NCBI RefSeq assembly: GCF_013426895.1
Contig: NZ_AP023174.1
Coordinates: 3,162,001 to 3,226,000, forward strand
Direction of reading: 5' to 3'
From: Paraburkholderia largidicola
GTDB lineage: Bacteria > Pseudomonadota > Gammaproteobacteria > Burkholderiales > Burkholderiaceae
Length of the DNA: 64,000 nt
Shown piece by piece: positions 21,342-26,323 of this stretch (the first letter of the stretch is position 1; the number at the start of each line of letters is the position of its first letter). The translations under genes were made by a program, and so were the position numbers. Below the pieces are notes generated by a model, which worked only from the letters and a program-made list of their open reading frames with translations, ran no database searches and was not told where the DNA came from.

Positions 21342-21830
21342 ATGAAAACAACGAGTCGTATGTTGAGTCACCTGGTACTGGGCGCGGTGATCGCGAGTTC
21401 GCTCGCCATGACGGGCTGTGCGTACAACAGCAGTTCCGCTGATGTGTATACGTCGTCGCAGGCGCAGCGCGAAGAGACGGTGCGCATGGGCGTCGTCGAC
21501 AGCGTGCGGGCGGTGAAGATCAGCTCGAACAATGGCCAGCCTAGTGGCATTGGGGCGATTGGTGGCGGCGCGCTTGGCGCGGTGGCGGGCAGTGCGATAG
21601 GCGGCGGGCGCGGGTCGATCCTGACGGGTATCGTTGGCGGCCTGGCGGGCGCTGTCGCGGGTAATACGATCGAGAACAGCACGGCGATGCGAGATGGCGT
21701 CGAGATTACCGTGCGGCTCGACAATGGCGATATGCGCGCCATTACGCAAAGCGCCACGGGTGAGATTTTTCGCGCTGGCGAGAGGGTTCGGTTGCTGTCG
21801 AGTGGTGGTGTGACTCGCGTTACGCATTGA
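21342..21830 (+). CDS. glycine-zipper outer-membrane lipoprotein (SlyB/Pcp-like)
   Basis: Lipoprotein of 162 residues. The signal peptide ends in LAMTGC, with lipidated Cys26 and no Asp at +2, so outer-membrane sorting is expected. Residues about 65-105 form a glycine-zipper 2TM segment (repeated GxxxG: GGALGAVAGSAIGG, GIVGGLAGAVAGN). A small C-terminal beta domain with VEITVRLDNGDMRAI follows. Family members stabilise the outer membrane and some are under PhoP control; nothing in the sequence shows that here. It is followed by a clear terminator, then the accessory island. Confidence 0.9.
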   Translation: MKTTSRMLSHLVLGAVIASSLAMTGCAYNSSSADVYTSSQAQREETVRMGVVDSVRAVKISSNNGQPSGIGAIGGGALGAVAGSAIGGGRGSILTGIVGGLAGAVAGNTIENSTAMRDGVEITVRLDNGDMRAITQSATGEIFRAGERVRLLSSGGVTRVTH

Positions 21831-21883: not shown

Positions 21884-21917
21884 ACGCATGTGCTCCCCTG
21901 TGCATGCGTTTTTTTTT
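21884..21917 (+). terminator. intrinsic terminator after the glycine-zipper lipoprotein gene
   Basis: Stem ACGCATG / CATGCGT (21884-21890 with 21903-21909), extendable with G-U pairs, followed by a run of nine T. It marks the end of the core operon and the start of the island flank. Confidence 0.85.
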
Positions 21918-22053
21918 GCCTTCTGGGGCGGCGGGCCCCTTCGTTGTGGTTGATTTTGTCTGTTTGTTGATCGGGTTTGTGGGTTTGGGGTGCTCGCGCG
22001 CGAGGCAGTGGTTTTGCGAGGTTTGCCTTTGCGGTAGTAGCACACGTGCTTTG

Positions 22054-22136
22054 CTTCTGCGCTGGCATCCGCGATTTGCCTTCGTGCTTCAAGCGTCGCC
22101 CCTGTGCGGGGCGGCACCTACTTTTCTTTGCCGCCG
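22054..22136 (-). repeat. palindromic repeat copy 1, outer half (split by the IS481-family element)
   Basis: Read on the minus strand, this segment starts CGGCGGCAAAGAAAAGTAGG, continues GTGCCGCCCCGCACAGGGGC and ends with GCGGATGCCAGCGCA. The same sequence occurs at 25308-25388. The matching inner half lies at 23415-23460 on the other side of the IS. The bases between 21918 and 22053 are T/G-rich and contain no gene that I can support. Confidence 0.8.
22131..22136. repeat. target site duplication CCGCCG, left of the IS481-family element
   Basis: CCGCCG lies directly outside both ends of the IS481-family element (22131-22136 and 23415-23420). The intact repeat at 25266-25388 has the motif only once at the equivalent place (TTTG-CCGCCG-CAAA on its minus strand), so this is a genuine 6-bp duplication. 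Confidence 0.85.
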
Positions 22137-23414
22137 TGTACAGACTGGAGACATCGCTGACAGGTGTACAGGGACATGACTGACACTTTCGGGTAATCAA
22201 ACGCCCGGATTCCAACCATGCCCTGGGATGTAAAAGACACCATGAATCGTCGCGAAGATTTCGTCTGCGAGGCCGCCACACAGGCGGTCCCGTTCAGCGA
22301 GCTATGCCGTAAATTCAAGATCACCCGCCAGACCGGCTACAAGTGGCTCGCCCGCCACAAGTCTGAGGGTAGCAAGGGGCTGGCCGACCGCTCCCGGCGC
22401 CCGCATCACAGCCCCACACGCTCACCGGAGCACATCGAGGCACTGGTGCTGGACCTGCGCCGCCAGCATGGCTGGGGCGGACGCAAGATCGCACGGCGCC
22501 TGCGCGATCTGGGCCAGATTGAGGTTCCCGCGCCCGCCACCATCACCGAGATCCTGCGACGCCACGGGCTCATTGATGAACAGGCGTCCCGCCAGCGCCA
22601 GCACTGGCAACGCTTCGAGCACGAGCATCCGAACTCGTTGTGGCAGATGGACTTCAAGGGCGACTTCCCGACCCTGGAGAGCGGGCGCTGCGCGCCGCTG
22701 ACGGTCATCGATGACCACTCGCGCTACAACATCGTGCTGAGCGCCTGCGCGCGCACCACCACCGGGATCGTGCAGGCAGAGCTTGAGCGGGCGTTTCGCT
22801 GCTACGGACTGCCATCGCGCATCAACACCGACAACGGCGCGCCGTGGGGCTCGCCCAGTGCGCCGGGGCAGCTCACCGAGCTCGCGGTCTGGCTGATCCG
22901 GCTGGGCATCCAGGTGAGCTACAGCCGCCCGTATCACCCGCAGACCAATGGCAAGGATGAACGGTTTCACCGCTCGCTGAAGGCCGAAGTGCTGGAGCGG
23001 CACACGTTCACCACGCACGCGCACGTGCAGCAGGTACTGGATCGCTGGCGGCAGGTGTACAACACCGAGCGTCCGCATGAGGCACTGGACATGGCGGTGC
23101 CGGTCACCCGCTACGCGTGCAGCCTGCGCAGGATGCCGGAGCGGCTGCCCGAGCCCGAATACGGTTGCGGCGATGAAGTGCTACAGGTCAATGCAAGCGG
23201 CGTGGTGCGCGTGCGAGGCGAGAAAGTGAAGCTCTCGATTGCGCTCAAGGGGCTGCAGGTGGCAGCCCGCCCGAGCGAAGAAGACGACGGGGTGATCGAG
23301 ATCTGGTTCGCCCATCAGCGAGTCGCAAAACTTGACCTGAAGACAGTAAAACCCTGACCATCATGTGTCAGCGATGTCTCTGTACATGTGTCAACCATGT
23401 CTCCAGTCTGTACA
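22137..23414 (+). mobile_element. IS481-family insertion sequence, complete, 1278 bp
   Basis: Bounded by inverted repeats beginning TGTACAGACTGGAGACAT (perfect for 18 bases, then imperfect to about 52). It carries one transposase gene and is flanked by a 6-bp duplication CCGCCG. Each terminus contains two related tandem sub-repeats of the form TGTACAG-n-GACAT-nnn-TGACA, probably paired transposase binding sites. The element sits in the centre of a palindromic dispersed repeat. The open reading frame is intact, so it may still be active. Confidence 0.92.
22218..23357 (+). CDS. IS481-family transposase
   Basis: DDE transposase of 379 residues. N-terminal helix-turn-helix (FSELCRKFKITRQTGYKWLARH) and a second HTH region (GGRKIARRLRD...PAPATITEILRRHG) precede an rve integrase core. 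The catalytic residues are Asp in WQMDFKGDF, Asp in INTDNGAPWG and Glu in NGKDERFHRSLK. The MPWDVKDTMNRREDF start is typical of IS481 transposases. No frameshift is needed and no internal stop is seen. The initiation site lacks a strong Shine-Dalgarno, common for transposases. Confidence 0.95.
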   Translation: MPWDVKDTMNRREDFVCEAATQAVPFSELCRKFKITRQTGYKWLARHKSEGSKGLADRSRRPHHSPTRSPEHIEALVLDLRRQHGWGGRKIARRLRDLGQIEVPAPATITEILRRHGLIDEQASRQRQHWQRFEHEHPNSLWQMDFKGDFPTLESGRCAPLTVIDDHSRYNIVLSACARTTTGIVQAELERAFRCYGLPSRINTDNGAPWGSPSAPGQLTELAVWLIRLGIQVSYSRPYHPQTNGKDERFHRSLKAEVLERHTFTTHAHVQQVLDRWRQVYNTERPHEALDMAVPVTRYACSLRRMPERLPEPEYGCGDEVLQVNASGVVRVRGEKVKLSIALKGLQVAARPSEEDDGVIEIWFAHQRVAKLDLKTVKP

Positions 23415-23420
23415 CCGCCG
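23415..23420. repeat. target site duplication CCGCCG, right of the IS481-family element
   Basis: Right-hand copy of the 6-bp duplication described at 22131-22136. Confidence 0.85.
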
Positions 23421-23460
23421 CAAAGAAAAGTAGGCAAAAGAAAGCGGCTCACACCGCCAG
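23415..23460 (-). repeat. palindromic repeat copy 1, inner half
   Basis: On the plus strand this reads CCGCCGCAAAGAAAAGTAGG, then CAAAAGAAAGCGGCTCACACCGCCAG. It is the exact reverse complement of 25266-25311 in the intact second copy. Joined to 22054-22130 it recreates one complete repeat. Confidence 0.82.
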
Positions 23461-23582
23461 CACGTGTTCTTATCCAGGGCTCCCCAACGTCCCCATTCTT
23501 CATGCGGCATTACCCTGGCCGGTGCTCGTTGCGAACGCTTTGAATGGACGCCTCACCGGCTCCAGACACCCGCACAAGGGCC

Positions 23583-23736
23583 AGCGGCAACGAATGGTTA
23601 TTGCCGCTCAGGTGGCAAACGGTGTGTAGGTTGTCGCACCGCACAGGTCAGTGCTCCTACCAGAAACACCAGCCTTGCTACCCAGCCCGGAGTGATGCGC
23701 GTATGGCGCGAAAGCCTAAACACCGTTTGCCACCTG
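23583..23736. repeat. large stem-loop structure in the core
   Basis: Two structures. First, AGCGGCAA / TTGCCGCT at about 23583-23608 with a 10-base loop. Second, 22-base arms at 23609-23630 (CAGGTGGCAAACGGTGTGTAGG begins here) and 23715-23736 matching at 21 of 22 positions, enclosing an 84-base loop. The single mismatch is a G/T transition-like change in the loop-proximal part. It could fold as RNA or as extruded single-stranded DNA. Confidence 0.65.
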
Positions 23737-23828
23737 GACGGCAGAGGACTGTCTGGCACGGCGTGCCGCGACGCGGGGGCATGAAGCGGGTGAGGCGTAC
23801 AGGGAGAACGTTGGCAACGGGCGCGGAC

Positions 23829-23836
23829 TGGCGCGT
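23829..23836. repeat. target site duplication TGGCGCGT, left of the IS256-family element
   Basis: TGGCGCGT is present exactly at 23829-23836 and 25208-25215, directly outside the inverted termini. An 8-bp duplication is the norm for the IS256 family. Confidence 0.92.
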
Positions 23837-25207
23837 GGGCCTATCCGTCATTTTGTGGGCGAGGCATATCATGAGAGGTAAAAGTCATGGATATGCCAAT
23901 GAAGAAGAAACGCACGGTGGCGTCTCAGGCAGCGGCCCGAGGGCCGCTGCCTGAACTGCCCAAGGCACTGCTGGACGAACTGGTCAAAGGGCCGATGACG
24001 CCAGGCGAGGTGCAGGATCTGATGCTGGCGTTTAACAAGGCGATTATCGAACGCGCGATGGGTGCGGAGATGAATCTGCATCTGGGGTATCCGCCGGGCG
24101 AATCCAAACCCGCTGGCCAGGCCAACGAGCGCAACGGCGCCAGCCGCAAGACGGTCATCACCGATCGTGGCGTCGTCCGGGTCGAGTTGCCGCGCGACCG
24201 CGACGGCAGCTTCGAGCCGATCCTGATCCCCAAACACGAACGCCGCTTCACCGGCTTTGACGAGCGCATCATCGCGATGTACGCGCGTGGCATGAGCGTG
24301 CGTGAGATCCAGGCCTTTCTGGCCGAGAGCTACGGCACCGAGGTGTCGCCCGATTTCATCAGTTCGGTCACCGACGAGGTGATGGCCGAAACGCTGGCCT
24401 GGCAGAACCGTCCGCTCGAGACGATGTACCCGGTGGTCTTCTTCGACGCGTTGCGGGTCAAGATCCGCGATGACGGTGTGGTCAGCAACAAGGCGGTGTA
24501 TCTGGCTCTGGGCATTCAGGCGGACGGCCAGCGCGATGTGCTGGGCCTGTGGATCGAGCAGACCGAGGGCGCGAAGTTCTGGCTCAAGGTGTTCAACGAA
24601 CTCAAGACCCGCGGCTGCCAGGACATCCTGATTGCGGTCGTTGACGGCCTGAAGGGGCTGACCGACGCGATCGGCGCGGCTTATCCGAAGACGGCGGTGC
24701 AAACCTGCATCGTGCATCTGATCCGCAACAGCCTGGAATACGCGGGCTGGAAGGACCGCAAGGCCGTCGCCCAGGCGCTGCGTCCGATCTACGCAGCGGC
24801 CAGCGAAGAGGCCGCGAAGCAGGCTCTGCAAGCCTTCGCTGATGGGCCATGGGGCGCGAAATACCCGAGCATCGTGCAGTCCTGGCAGCGCGCATGGGAG
24901 CACGTCACGCCGTTCTTCGTGTTTCCACCCGAGATCCGACGGGTCGTGTACACCACGAACGCCATTGAGAGTCTGAACATGCAGTTACGCAAGATCATCA
25001 AGACCCGCGGTCACTTCCCCAATGACGATGCTGCCATCAAGCTACTCTGGCTGGCATTGCGCAACGTCCTGGCCAAAAACGTGCGCTCAGCCTTCGACTG
25101 GAAGTCAGCCATGAACCAGTTTGCTATTCTGTTTGGCGATCGATTCACGCAGGCGCGCGGCTAACGATTCCTTTAACCGCCTCGCCCACAAAAATGCGGA
25201 CAGGCTC
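23837..25207 (+). mobile_element. IS256-family insertion sequence, complete, 1371 bp
   Basis: Inverted termini of 29 bases (23837-23865 and 25179-25207) match at 24 positions, the inner GTGGGCGAGGC part perfectly. The element has one intact mutator-type transposase gene and exact 8-bp target duplications. It interrupts the core between two inverted palindromic repeats, so it arrived after that structure formed. Confidence 0.95.
23887..25164 (+). CDS. IS256-family (mutator-type) transposase
   Basis: Transposase of 425 residues. Seen: the N-terminal region with MSVREIQAFLAESYGTEVSP (helix-turn-helix-like), then the catalytic core with Asp in PVVFFDALRVKI, Asp in AVVDGLKGLTDAI, the conserved TCIVHLIRNSL, and Glu in TTNAIESLNMQLRK. 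GAGAGG precedes the ATG at 23887. Intact and of full family length, hence possibly functional. Confidence 0.96.
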   Translation: MDMPMKKKRTVASQAAARGPLPELPKALLDELVKGPMTPGEVQDLMLAFNKAIIERAMGAEMNLHLGYPPGESKPAGQANERNGASRKTVITDRGVVRVELPRDRDGSFEPILIPKHERRFTGFDERIIAMYARGMSVREIQAFLAESYGTEVSPDFISSVTDEVMAETLAWQNRPLETMYPVVFFDALRVKIRDDGVVSNKAVYLALGIQADGQRDVLGLWIEQTEGAKFWLKVFNELKTRGCQDILIAVVDGLKGLTDAIGAAYPKTAVQTCIVHLIRNSLEYAGWKDRKAVAQALRPIYAAASEEAAKQALQAFADGPWGAKYPSIVQSWQRAWEHVTPFFVFPPEIRRVVYTTNAIESLNMQLRKIIKTRGHFPNDDAAIKLLWLALRNVLAKNVRSAFDWKSAMNQFAILFGDRFTQARG

Positions 25208-25215
25208 TGGCGCGT
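25208..25215. repeat. target site duplication TGGCGCGT, right of the IS256-family element
   Basis: Right-hand copy of the 8-bp duplication described at 23829-23836. Confidence 0.92.
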
Positions 25216-25265
25216 TGCCGTGTGAAGTGTAAGAGCCTTTGGGGGCCCTCAGGCAAACACAAGAA

Positions 25266-25388
25266 CTGGCGGTGTGAGCCGCTTTCTTTTGCCTACTTTT
25301 CTTTGCGGCGGCAAAGAAAAGTAGGTGCCGCCCCGCACAGGGGCAACACTCGCGAACCGATAACATCACGCGGATGCCAGCGCAAAAG
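25266..25388 (+). repeat. palindromic dispersed repeat, copy 2 (intact)
   Basis: Begins CTGGCGGTGTGAGCCGC and is centred on a perfect 15-bp palindrome (arms 25292-25306 and 25311-25325, loop GGCG). A small GCCCC-GCACA-GGGGC hairpin follows, and the repeat ends GCGGATGCCAGCGCAAAAG. Copy 1 lies in inverted orientation at 22054-22136 plus 23415-23460. The half facing the core is identical in both copies, while the outer half diverges after the GGGGC hairpin. The remaining bases up to 25467 are A/C-rich and show nothing I can name. Confidence 0.82.
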
Positions 25389-25467
25389 ACAAACCGCGAA
25401 CGCCAACGCAACCACAAGCCAACCACCCTGCTTGCGCAGCAAAACCAAAAACCCAATACCAAAAAGC

Positions 25468-25502
25468 AAAAAATCCCGCCACCAGTCACCCGGCGACGGG
25501 AT
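25468..25502 (-). terminator. intrinsic terminator of the histone H1-like gene
   Basis: On the minus strand an interrupted stem (GATCCCG...CGGGAT with inner GCC/GGC pairing) is followed by a TTTTTT run (25473-25468). It lies about 60 bases beyond the stop codon of the histone-like gene. Confidence 0.6.
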
Positions 25503-25539
25503 CAACGCTGATCGAGCGACAACCGCCACTCAATCAACC

Positions 25540-25562: not shown

Positions 25563-26168
25563 TTACGGACGGCTGCCCGTCGGGAACGGCCATGCTGCAG
25601 CCGGGTTCAGAGCCGTCTTCACCGTAGCAGCCGGCGCCGTCGAAGCAGCGGGCGCAGCCGGAGCAGGTGCTGCCTTCTTCGCAACAGCCTTCTTCGCAGG
25701 GGCAGCCTTCTTCGCAGGCGCAGCGGCCTTCTTCGCGGCAGCCTTCTTCGCAGGCGCAGCCTTTTTGGCGGCAGCCTTTTTCGCAGGCGCCTTCTTCGCA
25801 GCGGCCTTCTTCGCTGCAGCCTTCTTCGCCGGCGCTGCCTTCTTCGCAGCAACCTTCTTCACGGCGACTTTCTTCGCTGCAACCTTCTTCGCTGCAGCCT
25901 TCTTCGCCGGTGCTGCCTTCTTCGCAGCAACCTTCTTCACGGCGACTTTCTTCGCTGCAACCTTCTTCGTTGCGACCTTCTTCGCAGCTGCCTTCTTCGC
26001 CGGTGCTGCCTTCTTCGCAGCAACCTTCTTCACGGCGACCTTCTTCGCAGCGACCTTCTTCACGGCAACCTTCTTCACCGCTGCCTTCTTAGCCGGAGCA
26101 GCCTTCTTCGCAACGACCTTCTTCGCTGCAGCCTTCTTGGCTGCCGGTTTCTTCTTGGCGAGTGCCAT
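25563..26168 (-). CDS. histone H1-like Lys/Ala-rich DNA-binding protein
   Basis: Nucleoid-associated protein of 201 residues made almost only of Lys, Ala, Pro and Val, in [14 protein letters not shown] and PAKK units. There is no folded globular domain; it resembles the eukaryotic H1 tail and bacterial HctB/AlgP-like proteins common in Burkholderia. A longer module (about 26-29 residues from [10 protein letters not shown] to KKVAA) repeats about three times at both protein and DNA level, so copy number may vary between strains. The second of two adjacent ATG codons (26168) is preferred because GGAG then lies 7 bases upstream. Only about 18 C-terminal residues are non-repetitive (ending FPTGSRP). 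Confidence 0.9.
25640..26110. repeat. intragenic tandem repeat in the histone-like gene
   Basis: The coding strand repeats blocks based on GCNGCGAAGAAG. A long unit of about 80-90 bases containing GGTGCTGCCTTCTTCGCAGC (plus strand) recurs at about 25836, 25912 and 26002 with few changes. Such arrays are prone to slippage and to assembly error. Confidence 0.7.
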
Positions 26169-26323
26169 CATTTTCTCCTTCAGGTTTTCAGATGAGAGTC
26201 AGTTCAAACTACACCCTTCGTCAAAACCCGCTTCCCGCGGACGCTTCTCACGGCGGCCACTGCGAAGCGGGCTATTCATCGGCGTACGCAGCTCCAGCGC
26301 GCTTACGCTAATGAATACGGTAA

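Follow-up and report, generated by a model that had tools for sequence, protein, structure and literature searches.

A gene-free quasi-palindromic repeat of Paraburkholderia that mostly keeps its intergenic sites and exchanges its contents, probably by recombination between copies

What is the interrupted palindrome that lies between two convergent genes in the 64,000-nucleotide stretch of Paraburkholderia largidicola DNA analyzed here (contig NZ_AP023174.1, positions 3,162,001 to 3,226,000; hereafter the window)? At 22060-25382, two insertion sequences (IS) split a structure that the original prediction regarded as two inverted repeats around a small non-coding core, and as the best candidate in the window for an undescribed element. 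Our data point to one copy of a resident, non-autonomous quasi-palindromic repeat which is probably rewritten by recombination between its copies, breakage of a hairpin being the presumed trigger. The units sit at old intergenic addresses where they mostly stay, and their interiors undergo replacement and re-orientation. In genomes with apparently one unit, its two arms homogenize each other.

When the two IS elements and one copy of each target duplication are removed, 22060-25382 becomes a 660-bp gene-free quasi-palindrome. The inverted pair with its two IS elements and their target duplications was confirmed, and the structure is larger than described. The left and right arms (22054-22136 and 25306-25388) are 82% complementary, and the stretches 23415-23487 and 25239-25311 are 84% complementary. 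Intact copies match this reconstruction, as 23 units gave a consensus stretch of 659 bases composed of terminal repeats CGCTGGCATCCGCGT, a hairpin GCCCCTGTGCGGGGC, a second hairpin CCTACTTTTCTTTGCCGCCGCAAAGAAAAGTAGG and then a core with complementary halves. These halves extend the palindrome to a conserved 28-base inner stem, and the loop measures 79-85 bases in 126 of 128 units. The terminal-repeat-bounded non-coding unit therefore stands, and the separate core does not, because the core halves carry on the palindrome up to the loop. Similarly, the outer parts had been said to diverge; this is true of the stretch between the ends and the first hairpin, and the outermost ends CGCTGGCATCCGCG are conserved. 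Folded as DNA, as had been proposed as a check, one intact copy (L002) reached -279.5 kcal/mol, some 20 standard deviations better than its shuffled versions (z -20, 20 shuffles). The parts of the unit are as follows.

22060..25382, no strand: whole unit, terminal repeat to terminal repeat, split by two IS elements (from sequence, complementarity and consensus)
22060..22136, no strand: outer left arm, with terminal repeat CGCTGGCATCCGCG, a variable stretch, hairpin GCCCCTGTGCGGGGC and half 1 of hairpin CCTACTTTTCTTTGCCGCCG
22137..23414, + strand: IS481-family IS in the arm hairpin; transposase 22218-23357; target duplication CCGCCG at 22131-22136 and 23415-23420
23415..23457, no strand: inner left arm, with half 2 of the hairpin and CAAAAGAAAGCGGCTCACACCGCC
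23458..23836, no strand: left and central core; inner stem 23602-23640 / 23705-23743, with the asymmetric loop between
23837..25206, + strand: IS256-family IS in the core; transposase 23887-25164; target duplication CTGGCGCGT at 23828-23836 and 25207-25215
25216..25267, no strand: right remainder of the core
25268..25382, no strand: right arm, mirror of the left arm, with intact hairpin and terminal repeat

The two transposases scored 287 bits (IS481 family) and 410 bits (IS256 family) against NCBIfam models.

The unit is not peculiar to the window. The 29-base inner arm sequence was matched 176 times in forward and 175 times in reverse orientation in the 9.47-Mb genome (at most 3 mismatches), an abundance far beyond chance, since the same sequence read backward gave no match there at the same tolerance. 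With about 170 units of 660 bp, the family would make up some 1% of the genome. In loci L001-L020, all 23 forward arms had an inverted partner 471-479 bp further on, and two reverse arms stood alone. Over 71 loci of this genome (1.01 Mb), which were picked for carrying units (most do) and from which the background figures below were also drawn, 79 pairs and 8 unpaired arms were counted; the window unit accounts for two of the latter, units split by an IS30-family element account for four, and the remaining two (L003, L091) are only partly explained. Between the arms no genes besides IS genes were found in these 71 loci, with the exception of one 2-kb gene beside the unpaired arm at the edge of L091. 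Thus the unit is non-autonomous: in this sample only passenger IS genes lie inside it. As the original prediction had anticipated, unrelated loci also carry the core between paired repeats, and the core is not unique to the window: all 40 places scored, out of 197 candidates and including the query itself, matched it with 77-100% identity. Even spacing along the chromosome was not observed, the coefficient of variation of the gaps being 0.98, as for random placement (70 positions on contig 1, among the matches listed).

The behavior of the units at their sites was read from orthologous loci of two relatives. Mapping was tried for 23 units of the window's genome, with 16 mapped into loci of G344 and 9 into loci of G337, and the rest unscored; the gene flanks at mapped sites are on average 92.7% (G344) and 93.9% (G337) identical. 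A paired unit was kept at 24 of 25 sites (16/16 in G344, 8/9 in G337). The contents are another matter: core identity at orthologous sites is 80.8% in G344 (16 sites) and 81.2% in G337 (8 sites), against 81.3% and 81.9% for 150 random cross-genome pairs, and only 0/16 and 2/8 orthologous cores, respectively, exceed the 95th percentile of the random pairs. Also, the unit is flipped at 12 of 24 sites (10/16 in G344, 2/8 in G337). Because the core is palindromic, whole-core identity is ambiguous for orientation, which was instead read by alignment to the asymmetric central loop. In the 100 bases outside the units, identity at orthologous versus random sites is 76.2 versus 73.7 on the left and 78.2 versus 74.5 on the right.

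Replacement in place could be seen directly in a P. largidicola record, compared at two sites and 98.7% identical to the window's genome over 1,100 bases beside site 2. Site 2 is 97-100% identical throughout. At site 1 the core differs (83.4%): 60-base windows lying roughly between +180 and +660 relative to the left arm motif fall to 52-82%, with one inner window at 100%, and both sides of the changed stretch are 97-100% identical, one 90% window excepted (the last, partial window of each profile was ignored). This replacement argues against a fresh insertion. In P. caribensis, one site was compared; the orientation was ambiguous in MBA4, and the unit was inverted relative to ours in MWAP64 and 852011.

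At the window site itself, 30 genus loci, own included, were fetched from the 73 genomes with a match. A unit match was detected in the window's genome, G337, G344 and G338, and in none of the other 26 loci; G344 has the outer left arm only, followed by the same IS481-type sequence. Sites without the unit, called for in the original prediction, are thus available in 26 of the 29 fetched genus orthologues, and the window unit is missing from the more distant relatives. Conversely, five G344 units have no positional counterpart in our genome: two of these sites are unit-free here, two carry 89-bp remnants whose arm ends have been joined at GCCCC, and one is unmapped on the left, the comparison being unpolarized.

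One arm of the unit has a history in the databases. Family RF02421 (Bp1_684) of Rfam matches both window arms below its cut-off of 44 bits (42.6 and 33 bits), and some other arm copies of the genome score 44-50 bits. One arm is already in Rfam, and a description of the whole paired unit was not found in the open-access literature searched, subscription journals being outside that search. RF02421 was matched in 34 of 120 family genomes, 27 of them over the cut-off. The arm of our own type was found in 40 of 299 family genomes (27 of the 41 of the own genus, 12 in genus g24 and one in g14), a pattern that undercounts carriers, as variant arms exist. Among named records with arm or core (67 stretches, and 8 plasmid or megareplicon records), nearly all are Paraburkholderia and one is a Burkholderia sp., with no others. 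When 83 cores were compared, 22 fell into one family (own genome, G344, G309) and 60 into another, with one unlinked; both families are quasi-palindromic on inspection.

Genus g12 apparently offers the single-copy situation, with 2-4 RF02421 matches each in the ten genomes listed. In the nine g12 loci read, two arms in inverted orientation, separated by 0.7-4 kb, immediately precede astC of the ast operon; of 30 g12 astC loci, 22 have both arms upstream, 7 one arm and 1 none, and in the own genus both arms precede astC at 3 of 30 loci (own, G309, G300). At L242, the palindrome upstream of the ast (arginine succinyltransferase) operon lies behind an AraC-type regulator gene (the g12 loci are L242-L250 and L262-L291). 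One genome has a lone RF02421 copy between pdhB- and lpdA-type genes (L261:5068-5201 region). In the part of PMC3521395 available, Bp1_Cand684 of B. pseudomallei is placed in the same pdhB-lpdA gap, so that g12 is probably Burkholderia. As RF02421 is there a lone palindrome arm, the small RNA (sRNA) of Rfam may be a relic of the palindromic repeat.

The 22 g12 units with both arms allowed us to ask whether the arms of a locus evolve together. Over the outer 260 bases, arms are 95.2% complementary within a unit, which exceeds all of 5000 partner permutations (mean 89.8%, maximum 91.6%), and left arms are 89.7% alike across genomes; thus, the two arms at a g12 locus co-evolve. The multi-copy clade has lost this excess, with 79.1% complementarity within units and 79.5% across units (100 of 104 units of the own genome and G344, after filters for length and for orientation margin), which is what one would expect were all copies potential donors. 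Mismatches of the G.T and A.C types total 94 and 84 in the g12 single units, and 882 and 973 in the multi-copy set. A candidate G.U excess taken from an alignment-derived fold (1076 versus 149 A.C) was discarded: it reversed to 91 versus 1241 when the other strand was folded, and so reflects fitting. Evidence of selection for an RNA fold was weak or absent in these comparisons.

These observations can be joined into a mechanism. At replication, the inverted repeat would fold into a hairpin or cruciform, which may be cut by an SbcCD-type nuclease; homologous recombination between arms and between copies, by gene conversion and inversion, would then rewrite the interior, and slippage across the hairpin might leave the 89-bp remnants. 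On this reading, the unit would work as DNA and not as a structured RNA. In the part of PMC3315005 available to us, SbcCD and RecA of E. coli are described as handling interrupted palindromes. The simplest view would be that of a tolerated repeat in safe sites where IS elements land.

Several points weigh against recombination between resident copies as we propose it. The donor of the replaced core was not found, the best of 118 units reaching 89.9%, and the replaced tract runs about 80 bases beyond the right end of the unit, so that it is not cleanly bounded by the arms. In the inner stem, mismatches number 1.36 within and 1.46 between units (lowest of 2000 shuffles, 1.33). The origin of the G/T-rich and C/A-rich flanks of the units, described below, remains unexplained by it. 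Also, A.C mismatches outnumber those of the G.T type in 62 multi-copy units, and the reverse is true of 29, a mild strand bias; on the opposite strand the A.C-biased units would present a mild G.U excess, which RNA selection could give, but we attach little weight to it because the units are not independent. Finally, according to the same available part of PMC3521395, the RF02421 candidate was among those put to reverse-transcription PCR in B. pseudomallei. The last two points, with the RF02421 matches of both arms, are what speaks for a family of structured non-coding RNA genes, as the Rfam entry for one arm suggests. Nevertheless, the G.T and A.C totals are close, no compensation within units appears in the multi-copy clade, orientation relative to the neighbors changes freely, and no sigma-70-like promoter was found in the window stretch; we regard this interpretation as very unlikely.

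The unit of the window lies in the following surroundings.

21342..21830, + strand: left neighbor, glycine-zipper protein gene, used as anchor for finding orthologous sites
21884..21909, + strand: terminator-like hairpin and T run of the left gene, outside the unit
21910..22059, no strand: left flank, G/T-rich
25383..25471, no strand: right flank, C/A-rich
25472..25503, - strand: terminator-like hairpin of the right gene, outside the unit
25563..26171, - strand: right neighbor, convergent, histone H1-like HC2 gene

The right neighbor is itself repetitive, its HC2-type protein having AAKK-type repeats throughout. Genes were called by a custom codon-usage script, and 70 of 71 units had a called gene on either side: 33 in convergent, 33 in co-directional and 4 in divergent contexts, compared with 67, 174 and 101 for the 342 intergenic stretches of at least 100 bp in the same loci. 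For 27 of the 33 co-directional units, the nearer side is the 3' end of the upstream gene. Convergent, co-directional and divergent units number 13/11/1 in G344, 4/5/0 in G309 and 26/14/4 in other Paraburkholderia loci. Convergent gaps and the 3' ends of genes are thus preferred, and few units occur upstream of divergent genes. Whatever the gene context, the left 60 bases contain 3-7% A and the right 60 bases 3-5% T (70 units). Such strand-asymmetric flanks were not seen at four unoccupied sites (L170-L172, L174). The G/T-rich left and C/A-rich right flanks differ between relatives and contain decayed tandem copies of arm ends.

This placement might be that of a selected two-way transcription insulator or terminator, kept between convergent genes to stop read-through, as the convergent excess, the closeness to 3' ends, the conservation of the sites and the terminator-like hairpins facing inwards and outwards in each arm of the window unit would suggest. 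However, the terminator-like hairpins of the window's neighbors are present with or without the unit, being kept, by eye, in the four unit-less relatives just mentioned; most genus orthologues lack the unit, and any harmless insertion would also be expected at 3' ends. An insulator is therefore an improbable reading. An active transposon of the MITE (miniature inverted-repeat transposable element) or REPIN (doublet of repetitive extragenic palindromic, REP, sequences) type, moved by a transposase in trans, so that apparent replacement would be repeated insertion at preferred sites, is in our opinion unlikely too. The terminal inverted repeats, high copy number and presence/absence between relatives fit it; but most sites are common to relatives, the window's genome and the P. 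largidicola record share a 97-100% identical left flank running into a unit whose core differs, and no partner transposase was found. In the 71 own loci, not the whole genome, no IS sharing the unit ends was met between the arms besides the passenger IS. That the shuffling of contents is an artefact of short-read assemblies joining wrong copies has in its favor that the units are longer than short reads and the arms near-identical. Yet the compared genomes have few contigs (own 5, G337 4, G344 4), the P. largidicola record is labelled a complete genome, and wrong joins should break gene order across units, which is kept at mapped sites; we give this explanation hardly any credit.

The original prediction also called for a REP-associated tyrosine transposase (RAYT) of matching distribution, and this part was not borne out. 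A Y1_Tnp or RAYT protein is expected to carry the two histidines of an HxH motif. Two Y1_Tnp-like genes in the genome score 26.6 and 22.6 bits (cut-off 23), and both have lost HxH:

L146:10465-11172: RAYT-like (Y1_Tnp) gene, HxH replaced (MPGAVQ)
L147:3899-4615: RAYT-like (Y1_Tnp) gene, HxH replaced (MPDAVQ)

The higher-scoring gene is also present in G138, G165 and G268, where the arm pattern was not found. A weak match similar to the L146 gene occurs in most same-genus genomes searched, which suggests, from sequence, that this gene may be kept for a non-catalytic role.

The units are landing pads for IS elements and likely trouble spots for short-read assembly. For the IS481-family element, all 24 ends of the 12 copies found by a genome-wide search for the end pattern lie at one position of the arm hairpin. 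Its target choice is thus highly specialized. In the sampled own loci, to which the search was confined, all 4 copies of the IS30-family element lie in units, at the base of this hairpin; the two hairpin sites of the units it splits are 1,613-1,614 bp apart. Their positions are:

L007:13770-14786: IS30-family copy
L093:5476-6492: IS30-family copy
L104:5955-6971: IS30-family copy
L150:5233-6249: IS30-family copy

The IS256-family element was met twice in the 71 own loci, a set selected for carrying units, both times within a unit, and a Mutator/IS256-type gene is enclosed by the two arms of a g12 unit (L247). REP targeting is known for the IS3, IS110, IS4, IS256 and IS5 families, IS481 being unnamed in the available part of that source (PMC1525189).

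If resident units are indeed rewritten by recombination, each genome would offer numerous naturally replicated copies of one long palindrome, with relatives at graded distances and genomes that seem to have a single copy. It would then be possible to measure how fast, over what tract length and in which direction ectopic conversion and inversion proceed in bacteria. Long palindromes are usually held to be unstable, and the family would show how they persist; the sRNA of Rfam would also have to be reinterpreted as one arm of a DNA repeat. More tentatively, we wonder whether this could be a novel class of repeat in bacteria, in which the addresses stay fixed and the contents can be exchanged, whose own fold provokes breaks and in which repair guards the palindrome and spreads variants over more than 100 sites with no enzyme of its own. 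Such a unit would perpetuate itself through the recombination machinery of the host.

Dispersed palindromic repeats are a known kind. Like REP sequences, the bacterial interspersed mosaic elements (BIME) and the RAYT-linked REPINs, the present units are intergenic, palindromic, present in more than 100 copies, arranged as inverted pairs and targeted by IS elements. However, a REP or BIME unit is short, about 20-40 bases, paired or arrayed, whereas the unit here has about 660 bp, arms of more than 100 bp and a long shared stem instead of short hairpins; unlike in the REPIN/RAYT system, no working RAYT was found here, and contents are exchanged at conserved sites. With MITEs it shares terminal inverted repeats, dispersal and the lack of coding capacity, but nearly its whole length is inverted repeat; the unit-free sites compared were too dissimilar for a target duplication at the unit ends to be made out by eye. 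RF02421 covers one arm and describes it alone as an RNA, whereas here it belongs to a paired palindrome. On the primate Y chromosome, long palindromes undergo arm-to-arm gene conversion; the g12 units resemble them, as arms of one locus are more alike than orthologous arms (22 loci), and the difference is that exchange here probably also takes place among many dispersed copies in one bacterial genome. Three features thus distinguish the family from REP, REPIN and MITE as commonly understood: its size, its long shared stem, and contents that are exchanged while the sites are kept.

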